Shown in pieces: positions 1,540 to 22,189 of a stretch of DNA of 22,624 nucleotides (positions are counted from its first letter, which is position 1; the number at the start of each line of letters is the position of its first letter). The stretch is from a virus: the IMG/VR virus record IMGVR_UViG_3300005511_000807, positions 1-22,624 of that record; one strand, written 5' to 3'. Under the pieces are notes generated by a model. That model was not told the origin of the DNA. It made no database searches and saw nothing but the letters and a program-made list of their open reading frames with translations. The position numbers and the translations under genes were made by a program.

Positions 1540-1899
1540 ATGAACAAACCAACTATTTCCATCGAGACGGTGTCGGACGACATCGTCAAGGCCGCCAACG
1601 CACTCGCCACCGTCGTCGCGGGCGGCCTGCGCATCGGCCTGAAGAAGCCGAACGTGCTGCGCCAGTACCAGATCGTCGAAACGGTCGGCGCTTCGGCGCG
1701 CAACGAGGTCTACATGGGCATGGTCATGCCGCTGCTGTGGGTGACGCAGATCGACGGCGACGACCAGCCGCCGCCATCGACCAAGCGCGAGCTGGAAGCG
1801 CTGATCTCGCGCCTGGGCGAGGACGGCATCAGCGCCGTCATGAGCCATGTGGCGGAGCAGGCCGACACCGCCGTGTCCGAGGCCGCCGTAAAAAACTAG
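1540..1899 (+). CDS. Tail assembly chaperone, short (gpG-like) form
   Basis: This 119-residue protein sits between tube and tape measure genes, where contractile and long non-contractile tail phages encode a pair of assembly chaperones. The short form (lambda gpG, Mu gp41 position) is made by normal termination and helps coat the tape measure during tube assembly. The start ATG follows CAGGAACTG, giving an acceptable AGGA site. The N-terminal half is compact and mixed alpha/beta (RIGLKKPNVLRQYQIVETVG), and the C-terminal half is helical and acidic. The final codons are GTA AAA AAC TAG, and the heptamer A_AAA_AAC at 1890-1896 is an ideal -1 slippery sequence. The short product is therefore only one of two expected proteins. 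Function is inferred from position and the frameshift. Confidence 0.8.
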   Translation: MNKPTISIETVSDDIVKAANALATVVAGGLRIGLKKPNVLRQYQIVETVGASARNEVYMGMVMPLLWVTQIDGDDQPPPSTKRELEALISRLGEDGISAVMSHVAEQADTAVSEAAVKN

Positions 1900-2069
1900 C
1901 ACGGAACCCCGCATTCGCCACGGTGGTGTACCTGGTGAAGAACGGGGTTCCGTTCGATGTGGCGCTGAGCCTGCCGGAAGAAGTCGGCACTGCCTGGGCC
2001 ATCGCCCTGGGCGAGCAAGAGGGCGGCGAGTTCGATTTCGCCGCGATGCGCTGGATGCCCAGGAAGTAG
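1540..2069 (+). CDS. Tail assembly chaperone, -1 frameshift extended (gpGT-like) form
   Basis: A -1 slip on A_AAA_AAC (1890-1896) re-reads C1896 and continues in the frame CTA GCA CGG through to the TAG at 2067-2069. This adds 57 residues (LARNPAFATVVYLVKNG... ending AMRWMPRK) to the 119-residue protein, giving about 176 residues. The downstream frame has no ATG near its beginning and no ribosome binding site, so fusion is the only sensible route to its expression. In lambda and many other tailed phages the extended protein binds the tape measure and recruits tube subunits, and the G:GT ratio matters for assembly. The tape measure gene begins 22 bases later. A perfect 10-bp stem (1901-1910 with 1944-1953) just downstream is the likely stimulator. 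Confidence 0.8.
1890..1953 (+). promoter_or_regulatory. Programmed -1 ribosomal frameshift signal
   Basis: The slippery heptamer A_AAA_AAC (1890-1896) is in the correct phase and ends directly at the zero-frame TAG (1897-1899). Four bases after the heptamer, ACGGAACCCC (1901-1910) is perfectly complementary to GGGGTTCCGT (1944-1953). The resulting 10-bp stem encloses 33 bases that could fold further or form a pseudoknot. Confidence 0.85.
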
Positions 2070-2091: not shown

Positions 2092-3924
2092 ATGGCAAAA
2101 CCATACCAAATGATGTTGAAGTTACAGCTGTCCAATGGCGCCAGCAAGGGCTTGCGGGAGATCGCGAAGGCGCTGAAGCTGGTCGAAGATGGCGCGGGCA
2201 GGGCGCAGAAGAATCTGTCCGCGCTGGAGGAGATACTGGGCAAGCTGAAGGGCAAGGACGACGAGAAGGGCAAGAAGAAAAAAACTGGCGAAGCAATGGC
2301 CGGCGTCGCCGACAAGATGTTCGGCGCGTTCAAGTCGCCATACGAGGCGGCGGCGGAAGCCGCGCAGGCGCAGTCGGATTTCGAGACGCTCAACCTGGGC
2401 GCACAGAACAACGCCGCGGTGTATGCCAAGGCGGCCGCGTTGTCGCACAAAACGCTGGGCACCGGCATCGCCGACAACATCTCCCGCATACGCGATCTGA
2501 ACGATGCCTTCGGCGATCTGCCGAAATCGCTGGCGCTGTCGGAGGACTTCGCCAAATACTCGTTCGCGGCCAAGGTCGCCAACGGCGGCAAGGATGTCGA
2601 GGGGCTGACGGCGAATGCAGCCAAGGCCTTGGCTCTGCGCGGTGCGCCTGTCACGGGCGCCGATGCGGTGATGCGCAGCGAGCTGGATTTGCAATCGAAG
2701 GTGAATTTCGCCACCGGCGGCAAGGTCAACGGCGCGGAATTCGTGGCTGCGGCCAAGGCCGGAAAACAGGCGTATCAGCATTTCGACAAGGAGTATCTGT
2801 ACGGCCAGTTCTCCGCCTACATGGCGCAGGAATCCGGCGAGACGGCCGGCGCCAATGCGCAAGGCGCCTACGCGACGCTGGTGGGCGGCGGCATGGATGG
2901 CAAGGCCAAGGGCTTTCTGTCCCAGCTGGGCCTGCTGCAAGCGCGCGGCAAGGGCAAGGGCGGCGAGGCCGGCTTGAGCGCGGCCAACGTCGCGCTGATG
3001 GAGCACCGTCCCGACAAATTCATCGCCGAGGTGCTGGCGCCGGCGATCCGCAAAAAGTACGGCAACATCGACGACGCCAAGATGGTGTCGCTGCTGTCGA
3101 AAAACTTTGACGAGCACACCGCGAGCTTTATCGGCGACCAGATCGTCAACCAGCCGCGTTTGCAATCCCAGGCCAAGACGTATGAGAAGGCCAGCAACTA
3201 CGGCAGCGCCTACCAGCAATACCTGAAATCGCCGAAGGGCGCGGAGTTGGCGGCGGCGCAGGCGTGGAAGAATTTGCTGACCGTGATCGGCAGCGTGTAC
3301 CTGCCCAAAGTCACCAGCGCCTTGCTGTTCTTCGCCAAGACCATGGACAAGCTGGGCAACTGGCTGGGGCGCTTCCCGGTACTGACGCAGATTGCGGTCT
3401 ACGGCTTCGGCTTGCTGGCCGGCGCATTGAAGATAGGCGGAACGGTGCTCTCGTTGGGTGGCAATTTTTCCTGGCTGTGGAAGGCCATCAAGCGGATCGG
3501 CCCGCTGCTGCGGATGATAGTTCCGGCCATTGTGGCGATGGGCGAAGCGGTGATCGGAATGCTGACGCCGGTAGGTTGGGCAATTGCCGCCATCGTCGGC
3601 CTGAGCGTCGCGATCGGCGGCATCTGGTATTGGTTCCACAAGGATGCTCCCAAGAAGCCCGGTGCGCCGGCCATTCCCGCCGGTGCGACGGCGGGCGCGG
3701 CTGCCGCGCCGCGCAGCCTGCCGCCGGTCGCACCGCGCACGGCCATCAACCCGGTGCCGCCGCCTGCGCCTGCGCCGGTGTTCAAGGTCGAGAACAAGCT
3801 CGACTATCGCGGCATCACCACCCGCGTGCTGCAGGAAGCGGGCGCGCGGATGGCCGGGCCGCCCACCGGCCCCAATAACTTCGACGGCACGATGAACCTC
3901 GCCTCCGTCGCCTACGCAGGATAG
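2092..3924 (+). CDS. Tail tape measure protein
   Basis: At 610 residues this is the longest gene of the tail module, placed directly after the chaperones as tape measures are. It sets tail length and is ejected during DNA delivery. The N-terminal 100 residues are lysine- and alanine-rich helix with coiled-coil character (ALKLVEDGAGRAQKNLSALE). Hydrophobic segments follow at about residues 433-458 and 470-516, typical of the membrane-active region. Next is a proline/alanine-rich linker (about 523-560) and a short conserved-looking tail (LDYRGITTRVLQEAGARMAG ... FDGTMNL). The start has a good AGGAG site. For a contractile-tail phage this is a moderate-length tape measure, predicting a fairly short tail. 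Many long open frames on the opposite strand here are GC-driven shadows. Confidence 0.9.
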   Translation: MAKPYQMMLKLQLSNGASKGLREIAKALKLVEDGAGRAQKNLSALEEILGKLKGKDDEKGKKKKTGEAMAGVADKMFGAFKSPYEAAAEAAQAQSDFETLNLGAQNNAAVYAKAAALSHKTLGTGIADNISRIRDLNDAFGDLPKSLALSEDFAKYSFAAKVANGGKDVEGLTANAAKALALRGAPVTGADAVMRSELDLQSKVNFATGGKVNGAEFVAAAKAGKQAYQHFDKEYLYGQFSAYMAQESGETAGANAQGAYATLVGGGMDGKAKGFLSQLGLLQARGKGKGGEAGLSAANVALMEHRPDKFIAEVLAPAIRKKYGNIDDAKMVSLLSKNFDEHTASFIGDQIVNQPRLQSQAKTYEKASNYGSAYQQYLKSPKGAELAAAQAWKNLLTVIGSVYLPKVTSALLFFAKTMDKLGNWLGRFPVLTQIAVYGFGLLAGALKIGGTVLSLGGNFSWLWKAIKRIGPLLRMIVPAIVAMGEAVIGMLTPVGWAIAAIVGLSVAIGGIWYWFHKDAPKKPGAPAIPAGATAGAAAAPRSLPPVAPRTAINPVPPPAPAPVFKVENKLDYRGITTRVLQEAGARMAGPPTGPNNFDGTMNLASVAYAG

Positions 3925-12629: not shown

Positions 12630-13093
12630 CCCCCGCCGACTTCATCGCCGCCATCGGCCCCGCCGCCCGCGCCTCGGCCGTCCGTACCCGGGTGCCGGCC
12701 AGCTTCGCGCTCGCCGAGGCGGCACTCGAATCCGGCTGGGGCGCGTCGCAGTTGGCGCTGCAAGCCCGCAACCTGTTCGGCGTTAAGGCCGACCCATCCT
12801 GGCGCGGCGACGTGCTGCTGATGCCCACCCGGGAATTCCTCAAGGGCCAGTGGCAGATGCAGCCAGCCCGCTGGCGCAAGTATCCGGATTGGCAAGGTTG
12901 CATCGACGACCACGCCGCCTTCCTGCTGGCCAACCCGCGCTACAAGCCGGCGTTTTCCTGCCGCGGCGGCGAGGCGTTCGCGCGCGCGGTGGCCGCCGCC
13001 GGCTACGCCACCGATCCGCAATATGCCGACAAGCTGATCGCCGTGATGCGCGGCCGCCAGCTGTCCATCTTCGACCGCCCGGAGGCGCCATGA
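12626..13093 (+). CDS. Endolysin, FlgJ/GH73-type glucosaminidase
   Basis: The 155-residue protein consists of a single glucosaminidase domain of the FlgJ type, which cleaves peptidoglycan glycan strands to release phage particles. The key segment is PASFALAEAALESGWGASQL (residues 24-43), with the expected catalytic glutamate at E35 in LESGWG. Then comes NLFGVKADPSW, typical of these enzymes, and later YPDWQGCIDDHAAFLLANPR and AVAAAGYATDPQYADKLIAV. There is no signal peptide, so export depends on the holin. It overlaps the holin stop and the DUF1353 start by four bases each (ATGA at both ends), giving a tightly coupled lysis operon. Confidence 0.93.
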   Translation: MTPADFIAAIGPAARASAVRTRVPASFALAEAALESGWGASQLALQARNLFGVKADPSWRGDVLLMPTREFLKGQWQMQPARWRKYPDWQGCIDDHAAFLLANPRYKPAFSCRGGEAFARAVAAAGYATDPQYADKLIAVMRGRQLSIFDRPEAP

Positions 13094-13482
13094 AATCCGC
13101 CTTCCTGACCCCGCTGATCACCGAGTGCGTCGACGACCTGGCCGCCGGCGGACGCGGCACCTGGCGCGTGATGGCGCCGTTCCGCTATCAATCTGAAATC
13201 CTCGGCCGGGTGATCGAAGTCGAAGCCGGCTTCCTGACCGACTACGCCAGCGTGCCGCGCCTGCCGGTGCTGTACCTGCTGTTCGGCGACACCTCGCACA
13301 AGGCGGCCGTGATCCACGACTGGCTCTACCATCACCACGAGGTGTGCGACGAAGCCACCGCCAACCGCGTGCTGCGCGAGGCGTCGGAAGCCGACGGCAT
13401 TCCGGCCTGGCGCCGCCTGGGGATTTATCTGGGCGTCCAAATTGGCGGCACGCCGTCATGGAGGGCGGACGGTCCCGCTTAA
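13090..13482 (+). CDS. DUF1353 family protein in lysis cassette
   Basis: This 130-residue protein resembles the DUF1353 family, found in phage genomes near lysis and late genes with no settled function. Recognisable elements are GFLTDYASVPRLPVLYLLFG (47-66), HKAAVIHDWLYHHHEVCDEA (70-89) and the helical C-terminus with WRRLGIYLGVQIGG. The conserved H-x(5)-H-D-W-L-Y-H-H cluster suggests metal binding or a hydrolase-like active site, but this is inference. It overlaps the endolysin stop by four bases and occupies the position where Rz/Rz1 spanin genes commonly lie. No spanin pair (membrane anchor plus lipoprotein) is visible. Confidence 0.8.
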   Translation: MKSAFLTPLITECVDDLAAGGRGTWRVMAPFRYQSEILGRVIEVEAGFLTDYASVPRLPVLYLLFGDTSHKAAVIHDWLYHHHEVCDEATANRVLREASEADGIPAWRRLGIYLGVQIGGTPSWRADGPA

Positions 13483-14300: not shown

Positions 14301-14726
14301 ATGACGATAGACACTCTGAACTTCACGCCGTGGTCCGCGCTGTTGGGCGGCATACTCATCGGCGCAGCGGCCGCGATGCTGGTCCTGTTGAATGGCCGAA
14401 TTGCCGGCATCAGCGGCATCTTGGGCGGATTATTGCGGCCTGCGCGGGGCGATATTCTCTGGCGTATTGCTTTTATTGCCGGACTCATAATCGCCCCAAT
14501 AAGCTATGGCGTATTTTATGCGTGGCCCGAGATTCAGGCTGAAGCCGATACCGGGGCATTAATTGTTGCCGGTTTGTTGGTCGGGATCGGCACCCGATAC
14601 GGCAGCGGCTGCACCAGTGGGCATGGCGTTTGCGGAATATCGCGGCTGTCCCCACGTTCAATCACGGCGACCATCATTTTCATGGCGGCCGGTTTTGTTA
14701 CTGTCTACTTGATAAGGCACTTATAA
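14301..14726 (+). CDS. YeeE/YedE-family membrane protein, first half-transporter
   Basis: This 141-residue integral membrane protein is of the YeeE/YedE (sulfur-transport) family. It has hydrophobic segments at about residues 13-30, 53-75, 86-98 and 120-138. The diagnostic motif [12 protein letters not shown] is at 101-112 with cysteines C104 and C111, the residues that relay thiosulfate or related sulfur compounds in TsuA-type proteins. It is a half-length protein whose partner is encoded immediately downstream (TAATG, one-base overlap); the two together correspond to one full-length YeeE. A good GGAG site precedes the ATG. A persulfide dioxygenase or ArsR/BigR regulator often sits beside such pairs, but neither is next to this one; the prophage may have separated them. 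Confidence 0.9.
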
Positions 14727-15139
14727 TGGTTATCGCATTTCTAAGCGGCCTGCTATTTGGCCTTGGCCTGATTATCTCTGGCATGGCCAACCCCGCCAAA
14801 GTGTTGGGTTTTCTGGATTTAGCCGGAAAATGGGATCCTTCGCTGATATTCGTCATGTGCGGAGCCATCGCGGTAGGGTTTTTTGCGTTTTTATATGCCG
14901 GCCGTCGTAAAACGACTTTGCTCGGCACTGAATTGAAATTGCCCACTGCAACTAAAATCGATCGCCGCTTGGTAATCGGGTCGATATTATTCGGCGCAGG
15001 CTGGGGAATTGCCGGTTTTTGCCCTGGACCTGCTCTGGTAGGGCTAGGAATGGGCTTGCCGAAGGCTATTTTGTTCGTGCTGGCGATGCTGGCCGGCATG
15101 GGGATTTTCGAGTTGCTCGAACGCCGGCGCGGTGGATAA
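14726..15139 (+). CDS. YeeE/YedE-family membrane protein, second half-transporter
   Basis: The 137-residue partner of the preceding gene has membrane segments at about 3-20, 40-58, 83-97 and 108-128. It carries the conserved IAGFCPGPALVGLG motif, with C99 as the expected sulfur-relay cysteine, and the N-terminal signature GLGLIISGMANPAKVLGFLD. Together the two half-proteins are expected to import a sulfur-containing ion such as thiosulfate, or to handle sulfane sulfur; the exact substrate is not shown by sequence. The start ATG overlaps the upstream stop by one base. Its TAA stop lies within the left end of the dispersed element at 15132, whose hairpin may serve as terminator. Confidence 0.9.
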   Translation: MVIAFLSGLLFGLGLIISGMANPAKVLGFLDLAGKWDPSLIFVMCGAIAVGFFAFLYAGRRKTTLLGTELKLPTATKIDRRLVIGSILFGAGWGIAGFCPGPALVGLGMGLPKAILFVLAMLAGMGIFELLERRRGG

Positions 15140-15250
15140 GTTACCGCTGCGACAAAATTGCGCAGCGGTCTATTTTGCTTTTGAAACAGCAACTTAGCGT
15201 TGTCCAGTCCGGCTTGTTAACAAGCTTATCCACAGAATTTGTTAACAACC
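15132..15250 (+). repeat. Dispersed intergenic element, copy 1
   Basis: The element is 119 bp. GTGGATAA (15132-15139) forms the left edge and contains the TAA stop of the transporter gene. A hairpin CCGCTGCG / CGCAGCGG (15144-15151 with 15161-15168, loop ACAAAATTG) is followed by T-rich DNA. The right block has two TTGTTAACAA palindromes (15214-15223 and 15239-15248) flanking TTATCCACA (15226-15234), a perfect DnaA-box 9-mer. The same architecture recurs at 17249-17366 in the same orientation; the right 37 bases differ at only two positions. Confidence 0.85.
15144..15182 (+). terminator. Terminator-like hairpin after the YeeE pair, within element copy 1
   Basis: A perfect 8-bp stem (15144-15151 / 15161-15168) with a nine-base loop is followed by TCTATTTTGCTTTT. 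It starts four bases after the transporter stop. The interrupted T-run makes it a moderate terminator. Confidence 0.55.
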
Positions 15251-15265
15251 CGGACTTTGTATCGA

Positions 15266-17200
15266 TCAGCGCAAGCCGGGCATCACCTGCACCTCGACGC
15301 CGGAGTACATCGCCGGTGCGTGATACACGCGTTGCGTGGCCTTCTGGAAGTCCTCGGGCTTGGCCTTTGGAATGTCCACGAAGGTTTGCGGATTCAAGTC
15401 CACCAGCGGGAACCACGAACTCTGGATTTGCACCATGATGCGGTGGCCGCGCCGGAAAGTGTGGTTGACGTCGCTCATCGCGTAGTTGACCGCTTCCACC
15501 TTGCCCGGCGTGAACGGCTCCGGTTTTTCGAAGCTGTTGCGGAACTTGCCGCGCAGCGGATCGCCGCGCACCAGCTGCTGGTAGCCGGCCATGGTCAGGG
15601 TCGGCTTCGGCACATCGGAGCCGCGTTCCTCGTCGCCGCTACCCGGATACTCGGCCGGATAGACGTCGATCAGCTTGACGACCCAGTCGGCATCGGTGCC
15701 GGTGGTGGAGATGAACAACTTGGGCTTGACCGGCCCGGCCAGCGTGATGTCCTCTTCCAGCACTTCGCTGCGATAGGTCAGCACGTCCGGGCGCGACGAC
15801 GCGAAGCGCTGGTCGCCGACCATGTATTCCTGCGGCGCGCCCTGCGCCGGATAGGCCGTGAACGGCACCGGCTTGCGCGGATCGGCCACGTATTCGTCGT
15901 AGGCTTCGCCGGCGGCCGGCTGCTTCCAGCTCAGCGTGCCGTTCGGTCCGAGGAACAGCGTGCGCGCCTGCGTTTGCTTGGGCGGCCAGGCGGCGTAGTT
16001 GCGCCAGACATTGCTGCCCGTCTCGAAAGCATACACTTCCGACACGTTCTTGTTCGCCACGCCTTTCAGGTGTTGTTCGAAGAACGGATACAGGATATTG
16101 CTGCGGAATTGCTCGCCGGTCTTGGCATCGAACTTGACGTAGCCGAGGGTTTTGCCGTCGGCGCGGCCCCAGGCGCCATGCGACCACGGGCCCATCACCA
16201 GGCCGTTGTAGATGCCGGGATTGTTGCGCTTGATGCTGCTGTAGGTGGTCAGCGGGCCTTGCAGGTCTTCGGCGTCATACCAGCCGCCCACGGTCAGCAC
16301 GGCGGCCTTGATGTTCTTCAGGTGCGGCGCGATGTTGCGGGTCTTCCAGAATTCGTCGTAGGTCGAGTGCTCGATGGTCGGCTGCAGCAGCGCGCGCTGT
16401 TTCGCCGACATGGTGCCGAGGATGTTGGACAGCGTCAGGTGCTTGAGGAAGAACTCATAGCCGTCGGCGGTGCCGTAGTCGAAGCGGTCCCAGGTTTTCG
16501 GCAGCGGCGTCGGATTTTCCGCTTCCACGAAGGCCGAGTAGAAATCGAAGTTCGCTGCCAGCATGAAGGCGCCGCCGTGATACGAGTCGTCGTTCATGAA
16601 CAAGTCGGTGACGGGCGCCTGCGGCGACGCCGCCTTGATCGCCGGATGCGAATCGATGATGCTGGCCGACGTGTAGAAACCCGGATACGAGGTGCCCAGG
16701 ATACCGACCTTGCCGTTGTTGTTGGCGACGTTCTTCAGCAGCCACTCGACGGTGTCGTGCATGTCTTCGCTTTCGTTGCCCTGGCCCTTGGCGCGCTTGG
16801 GCGCAACGTGCGGTGTCATCTCGACCCATTTGCCTTCGGACATATAGCGTCCGCGCACGTCCTGCTTGACGAAGATGTAGCCGCTGTTCTCGAAGTCCTG
16901 CGACGGGCCGATGTGTTCGGGGTAGAAGTCGACGCCGTAGTGCAGCTCGCCGCCCGACTGCACGCCCGCGCTGTACGGCGTGCGCTGGATCAGGAAGGGA
17001 TAGGTCTTGCCGGCATCCTTGGGTACGTACACGGCGGTGAACAGGCGCACGCCGTCGCGCATCGGGATGCGGAATTCGTACTTGGTGTAGTGCTCGCGCA
17101 GGCTGTATTTCGGCGGGCCGCCGGCATCGGCGGCGCCGGCCTGGACGGAGAGGCAGCCCAGCATCAGGGCGAGGGCAAGTGCGGTGAGACGGGGTTTCAT
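15266..17200 (-). CDS. Exported CocE/NonD-family serine hydrolase
   Basis: This 644-residue alpha/beta-hydrolase is of the CocE/NonD (X-Pro dipeptidyl-peptidase S15-like) type. It begins with a Sec signal peptide (MKPRLTALALALMLGCLSVQ, cleavage after AGA near 23). The start at 17200 is chosen because AAGGA lies four to five bases upstream and the signal peptide begins there; an in-frame ATG at 17227 would add nine residues. The triad is visible: nucleophile S171 in GILGTSYPGF, D309 in VGGWYDAED and H341 in MGPWSHGAWG. The C-terminal third is the jelly-roll domain of the family (FTPGKVEAVNYAMSDVNHTF; HRIMVQIQSSWFPLVDLNPQ). Members act on esters, beta-lactam side chains, cocaine or dipeptides, so the natural substrate is unknown. 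It is flanked by the two element copies. Confidence 0.92.
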   Translation of the reverse strand: MKPRLTALALALMLGCLSVQAGAADAGGPPKYSLREHYTKYEFRIPMRDGVRLFTAVYVPKDAGKTYPFLIQRTPYSAGVQSGGELHYGVDFYPEHIGPSQDFENSGYIFVKQDVRGRYMSEGKWVEMTPHVAPKRAKGQGNESEDMHDTVEWLLKNVANNNGKVGILGTSYPGFYTSASIIDSHPAIKAASPQAPVTDLFMNDDSYHGGAFMLAANFDFYSAFVEAENPTPLPKTWDRFDYGTADGYEFFLKHLTLSNILGTMSAKQRALLQPTIEHSTYDEFWKTRNIAPHLKNIKAAVLTVGGWYDAEDLQGPLTTYSSIKRNNPGIYNGLVMGPWSHGAWGRADGKTLGYVKFDAKTGEQFRSNILYPFFEQHLKGVANKNVSEVYAFETGSNVWRNYAAWPPKQTQARTLFLGPNGTLSWKQPAAGEAYDEYVADPRKPVPFTAYPAQGAPQEYMVGDQRFASSRPDVLTYRSEVLEEDITLAGPVKPKLFISTTGTDADWVVKLIDVYPAEYPGSGDEERGSDVPKPTLTMAGYQQLVRGDPLRGKFRNSFEKPEPFTPGKVEAVNYAMSDVNHTFRRGHRIMVQIQSSWFPLVDLNPQTFVDIPKAKPEDFQKATQRVYHAPAMYSGVEVQVMPGLR

Positions 17201-17248
17201 GAGTTCCTTGTTGGATGAAGAAGTCAAAACCCGCCTAGTGTAATGCCA

Positions 17249-17366
17249 GTGGATAACTTTGACTGCGACAATTTTGCGCAGCCCTTATTTTTCCTTTGAA
17301 AACATCAGCTTGGCATCGGCGCCGCCGCCTTGTTAACAGCCTTATCCACAGAATTTGTTAACAACC
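17249..17366 (+). repeat. Dispersed intergenic element, copy 2
   Basis: This is a 118-bp relative of 15132-15250. GTGGATAA is at 17249-17256. Hairpin CTGCG / CGCAG (17263-17267 with 17277-17281) has the nine-base loop ACAATTTTG and is followed by T-rich DNA. TTGTTAACAG is at 17330-17339, the perfect DnaA-box 9-mer TTATCCACA at 17342-17350 and TTGTTAACAA at 17355-17364. The central 40 bases are diverged. It lies between the aldehyde dehydrogenase stop and the hydrolase start. Confidence 0.85.
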
Positions 17367-17370
17367 GCGC

Positions 17371-18804
17371 TTACAGCATCGGCAGCTTCAGGCTGTCCAC
17401 CACCATGCGTATCAGGCGCAGGCGGCCCGAGGTGTAGGGCGGGAAGAACAGCTTGATGAGCATCAGCGGCGAGGCGCGCAGCACCGCGCGCTCGTGCGAG
17501 AAAGCCTTGAAGCCGTACTCGCCGTGCGCACTGCCCATGCCCGAATTGTTGACGCCGCCAAATGGCAGATTGCCGTGCGCGAAATGCGCGACGCAGTGAT
17601 TGACGCAGGCGCCGCCGGAGCTGGTCTGCTTGAGCACCTTGTCGATGTTGGCCTGGCGCGTGCTCCACACGTACAAGGCCAGCGGCTTGGGCGCGGCGTT
17701 GATGGTGGCGATCACCTGGTCCAGCTCGCGGTATTCGATGATGGGCAGCAGCGGTCCGAAAATTTCTTCCGACAGGATGGCGGCGCCGGCCGGTATCTGT
17801 TCGATCAGCGTCGGCGCGATGTAGCACTGCGCCTCGTCGACTTCGCCGCCGGTGTGTACCACGGCGCCACGTTGCAGCGCATCCGCCAGCAGGCCAGCCA
17901 GGCGTTGCGTGTGGCGCTGGTTGACCACGCGTGTCAGATCGGGGCTCTGCTTTTGCGCGGCCGCGTCGGCGCCGTAGCGCTGTTGCAGCACCGTGCGGCA
18001 GGCGGCGATGAAGGCGGGCTTGACGCTGGCATGCACATACACATGGTCGGGCGCCACGCAGGTCTGGCCGTTGTTGAGGAACTTCCCCCACATCAGCGTT
18101 TCCGCCGCCAGTTGCAGGTTGGCGCTCTCGTCGACGATGGTGGGCGACTTGCCGCCCAGTTCCAGCGTCACGCTGGCCAGGTGCTGGGCGGCGGCGGTCA
18201 TCACCAGCTTGCCGACCGACGGCGAACCGGTGAAGAAAATATGATCGAAGGGCAGCTGGAGCAGGGCGTGCGAAGTCGGCTGGCTGCCTTCGAACAGCGC
18301 CACTTCGTCGGCCGGGAACACGTCGGCGATGATGCGCGCCATCAGCGCCGACACGGCAGGCGTCATCTCCGACGGCTTGATGATGGCCGTGTTGCCGGCG
18401 GCCAGCGCCGACACCAGCGGGCCGAAGCACAAGCTCAGCGGATAGTTCCACGGCGCGATGATCAGCACCCGTCCGCGCGGCTGGTACTGCACCGACGCGT
18501 AGGTGCCCAGCATGGTGGTGGTGGGCCAGTGGCGGCGCGGCTTCATCCAGCGCTTGAGCGCGCCCAGCACCTGGCGGATTTCCTCCATCACCGGCAGGAA
18601 CTCCGATGCTTCGACCTCGGCCGGGGACTTGCGGTAGTCGCTCTCGAAGGCCGCATAGAACGCTTCGCGCTGCGCCATCAGCGCGTCGCGCAGGCGCTTG
18701 ACCCGGGCGATGCGCTCGGCGGCGGCCGATGCGCGCCAGCGTAGCGCGGTGGCCTGCTGGGCGTCGAAAGCCGCTTTGATCTGCTGCACGTCCGCTTCGT
18801 TCAT
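17371..18804 (-). CDS. Aldehyde dehydrogenase, coniferyl-aldehyde-dehydrogenase type
   Basis: This 477-residue NAD(P)-dependent aldehyde dehydrogenase is of the short class-3/coniferyl type and has no N-terminal extension. Landmarks are the cofactor-binding IIAPWNYPL (115-123) and KPSE (143-146), the nucleotide-fold turn FTGSPSVGKL (191-200), general-base E215 in TLELGGKSP and nucleophile C249 in NNGQTCVAPDHV. Later come EEIFGPLLPI and the PFGGVNNSGMG closing motif. The hydrophobic C-terminus (LMLIKLFFPPYT) is typical of the membrane-touching class-3 group. The preferred substrate, an aromatic or long-chain aldehyde, is inferred. The start has GGGGGA eight bases upstream. A promoter with an inverted-repeat spacer lies between it and the co-oriented LysR gene. 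Confidence 0.93.
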   Translation of the reverse strand: MNEADVQQIKAAFDAQQATALRWRASAAAERIARVKRLRDALMAQREAFYAAFESDYRKSPAEVEASEFLPVMEEIRQVLGALKRWMKPRRHWPTTTMLGTYASVQYQPRGRVLIIAPWNYPLSLCFGPLVSALAAGNTAIIKPSEMTPAVSALMARIIADVFPADEVALFEGSQPTSHALLQLPFDHIFFTGSPSVGKLVMTAAAQHLASVTLELGGKSPTIVDESANLQLAAETLMWGKFLNNGQTCVAPDHVYVHASVKPAFIAACRTVLQQRYGADAAAQKQSPDLTRVVNQRHTQRLAGLLADALQRGAVVHTGGEVDEAQCYIAPTLIEQIPAGAAILSEEIFGPLLPIIEYRELDQVIATINAAPKPLALYVWSTRQANIDKVLKQTSSGGACVNHCVAHFAHGNLPFGGVNNSGMGSAHGEYGFKAFSHERAVLRASPLMLIKLFFPPYTSGRLRLIRMVVDSLKLPML

Positions 18805-18841
18805 GGCTGCCGTCCCCCGCTGTTGTCAATGTTGGAGGATC

Positions 18842-18870
18842 ATTATTGCTGCTATTTTTGCAGCAAGCAA
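18842..18870 (-). promoter_or_regulatory. Probable aldehyde dehydrogenase promoter with inverted-repeat spacer
   Basis: On the minus strand, TTGCTT (18870-18865) and AATAAT (18847-18842) are 17 bases apart, a good sigma-70 arrangement with a near-consensus -10. The whole spacer, GCTGC-AAAAATA-GCAGC, is an inverted repeat (7-bp arms if extended to TTGCTGC/GCAGCAA). This suggests a regulator-binding site over the promoter, or a hairpin after the LysR gene, whose stop is nine bases upstream. Confidence 0.5.
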
Positions 18871-18878
18871 GTGCTTGA

Positions 18879-19784
18879 TTAGTGGCTTTGATCGGGGGCG
18901 ATGCTGTCGATCAGCGCACGGCAGGCGGCCGACATGCGCCGGTGCGGCGCGTAGATCAGCGAGAACGGCCGGCTGCGGCCGCGCATCTCGGGCAGCAGCT
19001 CGACCAACTGGCCGTTGCCCAGCCTTTCCTCGACGACGAAGCGGTAGGTCTGGCACACGCCCAGCCCCTGTTGCGCCATCGACACCACGCCCAGCACATC
19101 GTCGGCCAGCCGCATGCGCGGCGGCGCCGGCCAGTCGACATCGCTGCCGTCCACCCGCAGCAGCCATGGCGCTTGCCGGCCGGTGCTGGGCATGGTGAAG
19201 GGCAGGCAGGCGTGGCTGGCCAGCTCGTCCAGGTCGCGTGGCGTGCCGGCCCGGCGCAGATAATCCGGCGCGGCCACCAGGCACAGCGCCGCGTCTTCCA
19301 GCCGCCGCGCGACCAGGCCGCTGTCGGCCAGTTCGCCCAGGCGTATCGCCATGTCGTAGCCCTCGTCGACCAGATCGACATTGCGGTTGGCGATGCTCAG
19401 TTCGACCACGACCTTGGGATGGCGCTCCATGAAGGGCCGGAGCAATTGCGGCAGCCGGTAGTGGCCGTAGGTGGTCGGCGCGCTCAGGCGCACCGTGCCT
19501 GACAGCTCGCCGCCCTGGCCCTGGATGGCGCGCTCGGCGTCGGCGATCAGGCCGAAGGCGCTGCGGGCTTGCTCCAGGTAGAGCCGGCCCGCCTCGGTCA
19601 CGCTCAGGCGGCGCGTGGTGCGCCGCATCAGTTGCACGCCGAGCCGGGCTTCCAGCCGGGCCACGGCGCGGCTCAGCACGGACGGCGTGGTGCCCAGCGT
19701 TACCGCCGCCGCGCTGATCGTGCCCTTGTCGACGATGGTGACGAAGGCCTCCACATCGGCCATATGATCGAATTGCCTGCCCAT
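18879..19784 (-). CDS. LysR-family transcriptional regulator
   Basis: This 301-residue protein has the standard LysR layout. The N-terminal winged helix-turn-helix spans residues about 7-66 (FVTIVDKGTISAAAVTLGTT, then SVLSRAVARLEARLGVQLMR and RRLSVTEAG). A linker helix and a two-lobed effector-binding domain follow (about 92-295, beginning GTVRLSAPTTYGHYRLPQLL). The ATG at 19784 gives a normal spacing to the helix-turn-helix; an earlier in-frame start is possible but not needed. It is divergent from the DJ-1/PfpI gene across 102 bases and upstream of the co-oriented aldehyde dehydrogenase. LysR proteins usually control the divergent neighbour, so the PfpI-like gene is the first candidate target. 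The effector is unknown. Confidence 0.93.
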   Translation of the reverse strand: MGRQFDHMADVEAFVTIVDKGTISAAAVTLGTTPSVLSRAVARLEARLGVQLMRRTTRRLSVTEAGRLYLEQARSAFGLIADAERAIQGQGGELSGTVRLSAPTTYGHYRLPQLLRPFMERHPKVVVELSIANRNVDLVDEGYDMAIRLGELADSGLVARRLEDAALCLVAAPDYLRRAGTPRDLDELASHACLPFTMPSTGRQAPWLLRVDGSDVDWPAPPRMRLADDVLGVVSMAQQGLGVCQTYRFVVEERLGNGQLVELLPEMRGRSRPFSLIYAPHRRMSAACRALIDSIAPDQSH

Positions 19785-19886
19785 TCATGCCTTTCAAGAA
19801 CAAATGATTTGGTGGTGCGCATATTTACACACTTTACAGGCATCAATAAAGTGGCGCTACCACCACACACACACAGGAGCGTCGCC
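19785..19886. promoter_or_regulatory. Divergent LysR / PfpI control region
   Basis: This 102-base AT-richer spacer lies between the LysR and PfpI-like genes. GGTGGTGCGC (19811-19820) and GCGCTACCACC (19854-19864) form an interrupted inverted repeat with one extra base. TTTACA (19833-19838) could be a -35 for the PfpI-like gene, but no good -10 follows. On the minus strand, TTGATG and TATGCG are 17 bases apart. GGAG (19876-19879) is the PfpI ribosome site. Confidence 0.45.
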
Positions 19887-20732
19887 ATGAACACCACCAT
19901 CCTCAAAGCCGCTGCCGGTACCGTGCTCGGCCTGGCCGCCGTCGCCGCCAACGCCGCCAACGTGCTGGTTGTACTGTCCGACGAATCGCAGCTGGCGCTG
20001 CGCGACCAGCGCAGTTTCAGCACCGGTTTCTACGCCAACGAACTGATGCAGCCGGTCAAAAAGCTGCTGGACGCGGGCCACACGCTGACCTTCGCCACGC
20101 CGCTCGGCAAGGCGCCGACGCTGGACCGCAGCTCGCTCGATAAAATGTACTTCGGCAATGACGAAGCCAGCATGCGCCAGCACGTCGAGTTGCTGGACAA
20201 GCTGCAGCTGACGTCGGCCGAGCATTCGCCGGTGGTCAGCCTGGCGCGCGTCGAACAGAACGGTTACGGCCACTACGATGCGATCTACATCCCGGGCGGC
20301 CACGCGCCGATGCAGGACTTGCTGCACAGCGCGCCGCTGGGCCGCTTGCTGCGCGACTTCCACGCCAACGCCAAGCCGACCGCGCTGGTGTGCCACGGCC
20401 CGATCGCCTTGCTGTCGGCGCTGGAGCAGCCGGCGCGCTTCACGGCCACGTTGGAGCAGGGCGCGCATGCCGCCCCGGCGCCGGCCTGGATCTACGCCGG
20501 CTACAAGATGACGGTCTTCAGCAATGCAGAAGAGGATGCGTCCAAAGGGATGTTGAATGGCGGCGCGATGAAATTCTGGCCGCAGGATGCGCTGCAAAAA
20601 GCCGGCGGCTCCTTCAGTAGCGCCGCCAGCTGGCAGACCTGGGTGGTGGCCGACCGCGAACTGATCACCGGCCAGAATCCCGCCTCGGCCAGCGCCGTCG
20701 CCGACCAGTTGCTGGCGCGCCTGAAGCGCTGA
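19887..20732 (+). CDS. Exported DJ-1/PfpI-family protein
   Basis: This 281-residue protein has an N-terminal signal peptide ([20 protein letters not shown], likely cleaved after ANA near 23), so it is probably periplasmic, which is less usual for this family. The DJ-1/PfpI core is clear: strand [19 protein letters not shown] with the conserved E52, [16 protein letters not shown] and the nucleophile elbow [10 protein letters not shown] with C169 and H170. The long form with an insertion around 80-120 resembles the Hsp31/HchA and glyoxalase III branch more than small PfpI proteases. Detoxification of reactive aldehydes or a repair role is plausible but unproven. The start has GGAG seven bases upstream. 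It is divergent from the LysR gene and ends six bases before a convergent gene. Confidence 0.88.
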
Positions 20733-20738
20733 TCCCGC

Positions 20739-21467
20739 TCAGTTGGGACGGAAGCGGTCGACGATGGCCTGGATCTCGCCGCGCCGCTTCAGCGCCTGGA
20801 TCGCCCGGTCCAGCGCCGGCAGCGCCAGCTTGCCGCGCGGCGGCAGCGCGCAGTAGCTGTCGAAGGCAAACACCTTGTAGACCACCGGGTTGAGCAAGGC
20901 CCGATCCGGGTGGGTTTTGCGCTGATAATCGTAGTACAGCGAATTGGTCAGCATGTAGCTGAAGCGCTTGCGCAGCAGCTTGGACAGGTTGAAGTCATCG
21001 CTGATGGCGTCGTCGCGGGAGAACTCATCGCCCAGCGGCGTCTCCAGATGCGCGTAGCGGTAGCCGAGGATGGTGCCGATGCGCTGCCGGCGCAGCTCGG
21101 CCACGCCGCGCACCGCCGCCGTATCGAGGCGGGTGGCGACGATCTCGTTGTTGGTGAAGATGGCGTCCGACCACAGCCAGTCCTTGCCGTCCAGCCATTC
21201 CGGCCGCAGGTCGCACAGGATGTCGGCCTGGCCGTTGGACAGCGGCGCTTCGACCCGCTTGCGCGGCACGTTCAGATAGCGCGGCGTCATGCGCAGCTCA
21301 CGCGCCAGCGCGTCGCCGAATTCCTTGAGCAGTCCGCCCACCAGCACGCCATCACGGAAATCCGTCATCGGCATCGCGCTGCCGGTGGATACCACGTAGA
21401 CCAGTTCCTCGGCGCGACCAGGCAAGGCCAGCAGTAAGCTGGTGAAAAAAATAAGAATAAACCTCAT
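20739..21467 (-). CDS. Periplasmic solute-binding-like protein (SBP family 3)
   Basis: This 242-residue protein has a signal peptide (MRFILIFFTSLLLALPGRAE, cleavage after GRA near 19) and the fold pattern of amino-acid-type periplasmic binding proteins: LVYVVSTGSAMPMTDFRDGV, LLKEFGDALARELRMTPRYL, LSNGQADILCDLRPEWL and the C-terminal LDRAIQALKRRGEIQAIVDR. No permease or ATPase genes are adjacent, so it is an orphan. It could be a sensor-like or accessory protein rather than a transporter component. Ligand unknown. It is convergent with the PfpI-like gene and divergent from the flavin reductase gene across 86 bases. The ribosome site is weak. Confidence 0.8.
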   Translation of the reverse strand: MRFILIFFTSLLLALPGRAEELVYVVSTGSAMPMTDFRDGVLVGGLLKEFGDALARELRMTPRYLNVPRKRVEAPLSNGQADILCDLRPEWLDGKDWLWSDAIFTNNEIVATRLDTAAVRGVAELRRQRIGTILGYRYAHLETPLGDEFSRDDAISDDFNLSKLLRKRFSYMLTNSLYYDYQRKTHPDRALLNPVVYKVFAFDSYCALPPRGKLALPALDRAIQALKRRGEIQAIVDRFRPN

Positions 21468-21553
21468 CCGGCTATCATACCTGTAGTGGCAACGGACGCC
21501 ACCGGCCTGTGCGAAAATGTCGCATCGGCGCGGCAGCGCCTTCGGGATTGAAC

Positions 21554-22189
21554 ATGGACGACCGCTATTTCTACCAACCTGCGCTGGGCCACGGCCTGCC
21601 GCACGACCCTTTCAACGCCATCGTCGGGCCGCGTCCGATAGGCTGGATATCTTCGCGCGGCGCGGACGGCAGCCTCAACCTCGCGCCCTACAGTTTCTTC
21701 AACGCGTTCAACTACACGCCGCCGCTGATCGGCTTTTCCAGCCAGGGCCGCAAGGATACGCTGCGCAACGTCGAGCAGACCGGCGAGTTCGTATGGAACC
21801 TGGCCACGCGCCCGCTGGCCGAGGCCATGAACGCCAGCTGCGCGCCGGCGCCGCCGGAGGTGGACGAGTTCGTGCTGGCCGGCCTGACGCCGGTGGCATC
21901 GACCATCGTCGGCGTGCCGCGCGTGGCCGAGAGTCCGGTCGCCTTCGAATGCCGGTGCAGCCAGATCATCCGCCTGAACAACGCGGCCGGCGAACCGACC
22001 GACGGCTGGCTGATCATGGGGGAGGTGGTGGGCGTGCACATCGCGCAGACGCTGCTGCGCGATGGCGTGTACGACACGGCGGGCTCGCAAACCATCTTGC
22101 GCGGCGGCGGCCCGGCCGATTACTTCGAGATCAAGCGGGACAGCCTGTTCCGCATGAAGCGGCCCGACTATCCCAAGGTGGATCAGTAG
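21554..22189 (+). CDS. Flavin reductase-like FMN-binding split-barrel protein
   Basis: This 211-residue protein is of the flavin reductase-like family. Family features are the N-terminal AIVGPRPIGWISSRGADGSL (22-41), LAPYSFFNAFNYTPPLIGFS, KDTLRNVEQTGEFVWNLATR and VAFECRCSQIIRL, followed by the GEVVGVHI strand. These proteins bind FMN and either reduce it for a partner oxygenase or act as flavoredoxins. No partner oxygenase is next to it. The start at ATG 21554 is used because the family homology begins just after it; the ribosome site is weak. Its stop lies inside the 3' end of the convergent asparaginase gene, a seven-base overlap of coding ends. Confidence 0.88.
   Translation: MDDRYFYQPALGHGLPHDPFNAIVGPRPIGWISSRGADGSLNLAPYSFFNAFNYTPPLIGFSSQGRKDTLRNVEQTGEFVWNLATRPLAEAMNASCAPAPPEVDEFVLAGLTPVASTIVGVPRVAESPVAFECRCSQIIRLNNAAGEPTDGWLIMGEVVGVHIAQTLLRDGVYDTAGSQTILRGGGPADYFEIKRDSLFRMKRPDYPKVDQ

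Follow-up and report, generated by a model that had tools for sequence, protein, structure and literature searches.

Origin and gene neighbourhood of the slip signal

The prophage DNA analysed here (22,624 bp, the first 22,624 positions of IMG/VR record IMGVR_UViG_3300005511_000807; hereafter the window) carries in a tail-assembly gene a −1 slip signal for a second, longer protein, and the zero-frame stop codon of this gene directly follows the slippery heptamer. Tail chaperone genes are an established setting for frameshifting. The locus raises the question of whether its signal works as a programmed frameshift and what a stop codon in that position does.

The tail genes and the elements of the slip signal were on the plus strand. 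The window started within a tail sheath gene (1–978), of which the C-terminal 325 aa were present (Pfam PF17482, E 3.8e-7; phrog_23 tail sheath, E 7.8e-29). A putative tail tube protein, assigned on position and size, was encoded at 1037–1474 between the sheath and chaperone genes, with its ATG at 1037 within the listed ORF 1025–1474; its match, phrog_12993 (E 1.2e-52), is a PHROG without assigned function. The short zero-frame product of the tail assembly chaperone gene (1540–1899) was 119 aa long, and a tail tape measure protein of 610 aa followed at 2092–3924 (phrog_28, E 1.5e-12; phrog_1272, E 2.7e-12, both tape measure). The position of the chaperone gene between the tube and tape measure genes is the arrangement of the lambda G/GT type.

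The chaperone matched no Pfam family and one PHROG without a function (phrog_20383, E 3.2e-27). The first PDB match of its predicted fold was the HK97 chaperone gp13 (2ob9), a weak match with E 0.24, rmsd 4.4 over 97 residues and a Z of 4.5, which is below the level that excludes chance. The predicted fold also matched several phage chaperones in BFVD with Foldseek probabilities of 0.97–0.99. Elsewhere in the window, the ORF after the endolysin (13063–13479) matched phrog_1158, labelled tail assembly chaperone; the place is unlikely for such a gene and the label may be wrong. From a reading of the translations, host-like genes come after the lysis genes (14301–22189), which probably places the end of the phage part near 13.5 kb.

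Slippery site and fusion product

The heptamer AAAAAAC at 1890–1896 fitted X_XXY_YYZ in phase, with the zero-frame codons AAA at 1891–1893 and AAC at 1894–1896, and the zero-frame stop TAG followed directly at 1897–1899. The coordinates thus agreed with the earlier note, which had placed an in-phase A_AAA_AAC directly against the TAG, and translation of the sequence reproduced the 176-residue shifted reading that it had described. A −1 shift on A_AAA_AAC lengthened the product from 119 to 176 aa through a 57-aa extension in the −1 frame (1896–2069), with the junction VKNLARN and the end at 2069. Among the 13 listed genes of the window, the chaperone gene was the sole one with a stop abutting a slippery heptamer.

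Conservation in related tail operons

Scans of viral and genome contigs, with both the chaperone and its extension as queries, yielded several hundred loci. A phage collection searched with the chaperone or extension of the window gave no match. The loci fell into A1, which unites the branch of the window with a large related group, and a second clade called A3 or B; the A1 and A3 chaperone profiles matched each other with 99.7% probability.

A −1 slip site was present in 170/170 distinct homologous sites and was immediately followed by a zero-frame stop in 159 of the 170. The adjacent stop was found in 93/104 representatives after thinning to under 90% identity and in 9/11 clusters at 50% protein identity. 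Most slip sites were AAAAAAC, AAAAAAG, AAAAAAA or GGGAAAC, with one AAG AAG and one CGA AAG. The latter stood in place of the heptamer directly before TAG (L025:2843–2851), and CGA AAG is known to give low-level −1 shifting in Bacillus cdd and IS1222 (PMC5009743). In the exceptions, TCG, TTA, TCC or GAG replaced the stop and the zero frame ended 1–12 codons later. The 11 sites lacking an adjacent stop appeared otherwise intact, which argues that adjacency is not essential. One of the loci, from Oxalobacteraceae (L285:1797–1842), had the heptamer and stem of the window with TCG instead of the stop and a zero-frame ORF longer by 12 codons.

The −1 extension was open in all 104 representatives over 55–70 codons, and codon positions in that frame varied as in a protein-coding sequence. 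No ATG, GTG or TTG was present in −1 codons 1–17 in 50/104 sites, and no start position was conserved.

Tail clusters with a related chaperone were also found in Rugamonas rivuli (L291:1–5652) and Rugamonas aquatica (L292:4694–11555). Before the sheath gene, these loci encoded only a repressor with an S24-peptidase domain, a replication-like protein, a helicase loader and phrog_13532, and no capsid, portal or terminase was matched in them. They may be tailocin loci, encoding a phage-tail-like bacteriocin, or defective prophages.

Selection on the position of the stop codon

The three bases that follow the heptamer are also part of the −1 coding sequence, and the expected frequency of stops at this position was calculated given the −1 protein and codon usage. 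For the 61 sites of A1, 4.05 stops were expected and 54 observed, which argues that the stop is not required by the −1-frame protein. For the 42 sites of A3, 21.8 were expected and 39 observed. The stop in A1 forces CTA, GTA or ATA in the −1 frame, the rarest synonymous codons. The excess persisted after clustering at 50–80% protein identity; homologous sites are not independent, and the probabilities attached to the excess account for kinship by this clustering only. The stop-adjacent sites of A1 mostly read UAGC, a four-base context constrained by the −1-frame Ala codon, which may be a weak terminator.

Placed on a tree with many unresolved forks, the sites required a minimum of 20 changes of heptamer type, 6 of stop identity, 8 of hairpin strength and 10 of adjacency, the last with scattered losses. 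Since adjacency was almost always kept while heptamer, stop and hairpin changed, and since stops were in excess, the position of the stop is itself under selection. Overall, comparison among relatives shows selection on the slip site, the −1 extension, the stop position and, in the branch of the window, the hairpin.

Downstream hairpin

The earlier note had proposed a perfect 10-bp stem enclosing a long loop. Positions 1901–1910 were indeed the exact reverse complement of 1944–1953, and folding lengthened the basal stem to 11 bp (1901–1911 with 1943–1953), its 3′ arm also coding N-G-V-P in the −1 frame. The open loop did not stand: the 33-base interval folded as a hairpin of its own at 1914–1939 (1914–1920 with 1933–1939, 1922–1925 with 1929–1932), and its apical pairs covaried among relatives, so this reading was rejected. 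The candidate stimulator is therefore one long nested hairpin, separated from the heptamer by a 4-nt spacer that contains the stop codon.

Perfect 10-bp inverted repeats with a spacer up to about 60 nt occurred 12 times in the window against 1.9 in shuffles, and the repeat alone was thus not rare in this window. The structure at the heptamer site was exceptional. Its fold had a z of −4.2 against dinucleotide shuffles (0/200 as stable) and of −6.7 against shuffles keeping the −1-frame protein (row L027, 0/100 as stable), and was the strongest of its group in the synonymous-shuffle test. The same test gave a mean z of −3.6 in clade B, with 41/42 sites in the best 5%, and no hairpin selection in most sites of a third group. 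Sites of this group (e.g. L048, L062, L092, L106) retained the slip site and abutting stop without sign of a selected downstream hairpin, which argues that the family can do without the hairpin. A consensus fold across all 100 collinear sites produced no structure; this was attributed to the third group and was resolved by splitting by clade.

Covariation scored 0.274 over 14 relatives against 0.165 ± 0.021 in shuffles. Double changes were found in 11/19 hairpin pairs and every slid register scored lower, and the result from 58 relatives agreed. Members of both alignments were picked partly by folding strength, and the shuffle and slid-register controls are for this reason the better evidence. 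Compensatory changes were found in the branch of the window and in the second large clade, with both sides changed and pairing kept, e.g. GGAACCCC/GGGGTTCC, GGCACCCC/GGGGTGCC and GGGACGCC/GGCGTCCC. They affected the basal stem (pairs 16-60, 18-58 and 19-57 of alignment A5) and the apical hairpin (pairs 31-45 and 34-42 of A5); the apical pairing of the window was one base out of the family register. Covariation and the protein-preserving shuffles point to a downstream RNA structure as in a canonical −1 signal, with a predicted stimulating role.

With regard to an upstream Shine-Dalgarno stimulator of the dnaX type, which is an optional element of such signals, anti-Shine-Dalgarno pairing peaked about 5–7 and 13–16 nt upstream, at levels no higher than synonymous shuffles give. 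The earlier note had made its reading depend on whether related operons conserve the heptamer and the stem; this was examined here and did not go against that reading, with the third group lacking the hairpin.

Comparison with known frameshift systems

Lambda gpG/gpGT (G_GGA_AAG), HK97 and P2 (E/E′) likewise have a slippery site in a gene between the major tail or tube gene and the tape measure gene (PMC5009743). Comparison of the window with these systems found no sequence similarity and a weak fold match. The slip site is separated from the stop by 5 sense codons in lambda, about 5 in HK97 (counted by eye) and 6 in P2, whereas the distance in the family of the window is 0 and is conserved. 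In the PRFect work, the slip site is reported to lie on average 26 nt (SEA-PHAGES) and 36 nt (Xu phages) from the stop (PMC10274946). An archaeal-host system described in PMC5009743 shares the kinds of heptamer and the kind of gene with the window but differs in host.

Rous sarcoma virus and barley yellow dwarf virus also have a stop directly after a −1 heptamer, followed by RNA structure (PMC4373837), but these signals act on eukaryotic ribosomes in other genes and use pseudoknot or long-distance stimulators, unlike the nested hairpin of the window. Closer in design are the isolated Komagataeibacter phages phiKX1 and phiKX2, which have AAAAAAC abutting TGA, a GGCACCCCG/CGGGGTGCC stem and a homologous sheath. 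Their chaperone is only distantly related to that of the window, and its annotation splits it into two hypothetical proteins. In phiKX1 (LC644975), where chaperone and −1 extension lie at L193:6488–7029, the second of these proteins starts at an internal Met, and the frameshift was missed. A literature search retrieved no account of tail chaperone genes in which an abutting stop is conserved, with the 2004 survey of Xu, Hendrix and Duda outside its scope and a prior description possible, and the selected, family-wide abutting stop seems to be a variant not described before.

Proposed mechanism and alternative explanations

A working −1 programmed ribosomal frameshift in the tail assembly chaperone gene, as the earlier note had read it, is very probably the correct explanation, given the conserved slip site, the conserved extension of 55–70 codons, the covarying hairpin and the gene position. 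The chaperone would be made in two forms at a set ratio. Termination at the TAG would give the 119-aa form. Alternatively, the tRNAs on AAA and AAC, stimulated by the nested hairpin, would slip back one base together and reading would continue as CTA GCA into the 176-aa fusion. Position and design suggest that both proteins are made and act like gpG and gpGT of lambda, where the binding partner of gpG is the tape measure and that of the T part of gpGT is the tail protein (PMC5009743).

Two explanations that dispense with ribosomal slippage were considered and rejected. Slippage of the polymerase on the A run would fit the six or seven A of the A_AAA_AAN sites, but is most improbable: 37/104 representatives had GGGAAAC, CGAAAG or AAGAAG, which lack a long homopolymer and all fit tRNA re-pairing, and a hairpin 4–6 nt downstream is a ribosomal layout. 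The two ORFs may instead be expressed separately with an incidental overlap, as the annotators of phiKX1 called them, or the downstream ORF may be a decayed gene. The extension was open and of similar length in all 104 representatives, and half of the sites lacked a start-like codon ahead of the conserved motif, so that separate initiation offers no explanation and this reading too has hardly any likelihood left.

The role of the stop within a real frameshift was less clear-cut. The abutting stop may create a two-way choice between slip and release, in which competition from the release factor helps to set the ratio; this reading was favoured, with low confidence and at a probability somewhat under even. 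Tentatively, and with slightly less confidence, slip site and stop may form one unit in which, for as long as the stop occupies the A site, tandem slippage faces competition from the release factor. The speed of termination, by RF1 in UAG lineages and RF2 in UGA lineages, would then tune the chaperone ratio, and the hairpin would be optional, gained or lost by lineage. The earlier note had suggested that the stop may pause ribosomes. Its view of the stop placement as special held, the placement being conserved and selected, but the pausing role is unlikely. In such a role, the stop in the A site would raise slippage with the tRNAs in the E and P sites. Selection on adjacency is compatible with this, as is work described in PMC4373837 indicating that slippage can occur when the A site holds the codon that follows the heptamer, and A_AAA_AAC, less shift-prone than A_AAA_AAG in E. 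coli (PMC5009743), could need help. However, in earlier E. coli work cited in PMC4373837, −1 shifting at the HIV slip site fell when a stop was placed immediately behind it, and extra RF2, the cognate release factor, abolished the shift; competition is for this reason favoured over stimulation.

The stop may also have no kinetic role and simply give the short chaperone a clean end, sparing the hairpin and extra zero-frame codons from ribosomes that have not shifted, which is a credible though tentative alternative. The stops 1–12 codons later seem to be tolerated in the exceptional sites, and mutation of the natural stop at the same position in Rous sarcoma virus is reported in PMC4373837 to have had no effect. 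Against this, the later ends in lambda, HK97, P2, the SEA-PHAGES and the Xu phages argue that a short chaperone can generally be ended cleanly without a stop so near, and the zero distance has persisted through many changes of heptamer and stop.

Implications

The family offers a natural evolutionary experiment on a long-debated question, namely whether −1 slippage is possible, or open to control, once the A site already contains the next codon. Across hundreds of related sites, heptamer, stop and hairpin vary independently of one another with the place of the stop retained, and a few natural variants lack the stop, TAG being replaced by TCG or TGA by TTA, both synonymous in the −1 frame. In addition, an unannotated frameshift product would be identified in a large group of contractile-tail phages, two isolated phages included.
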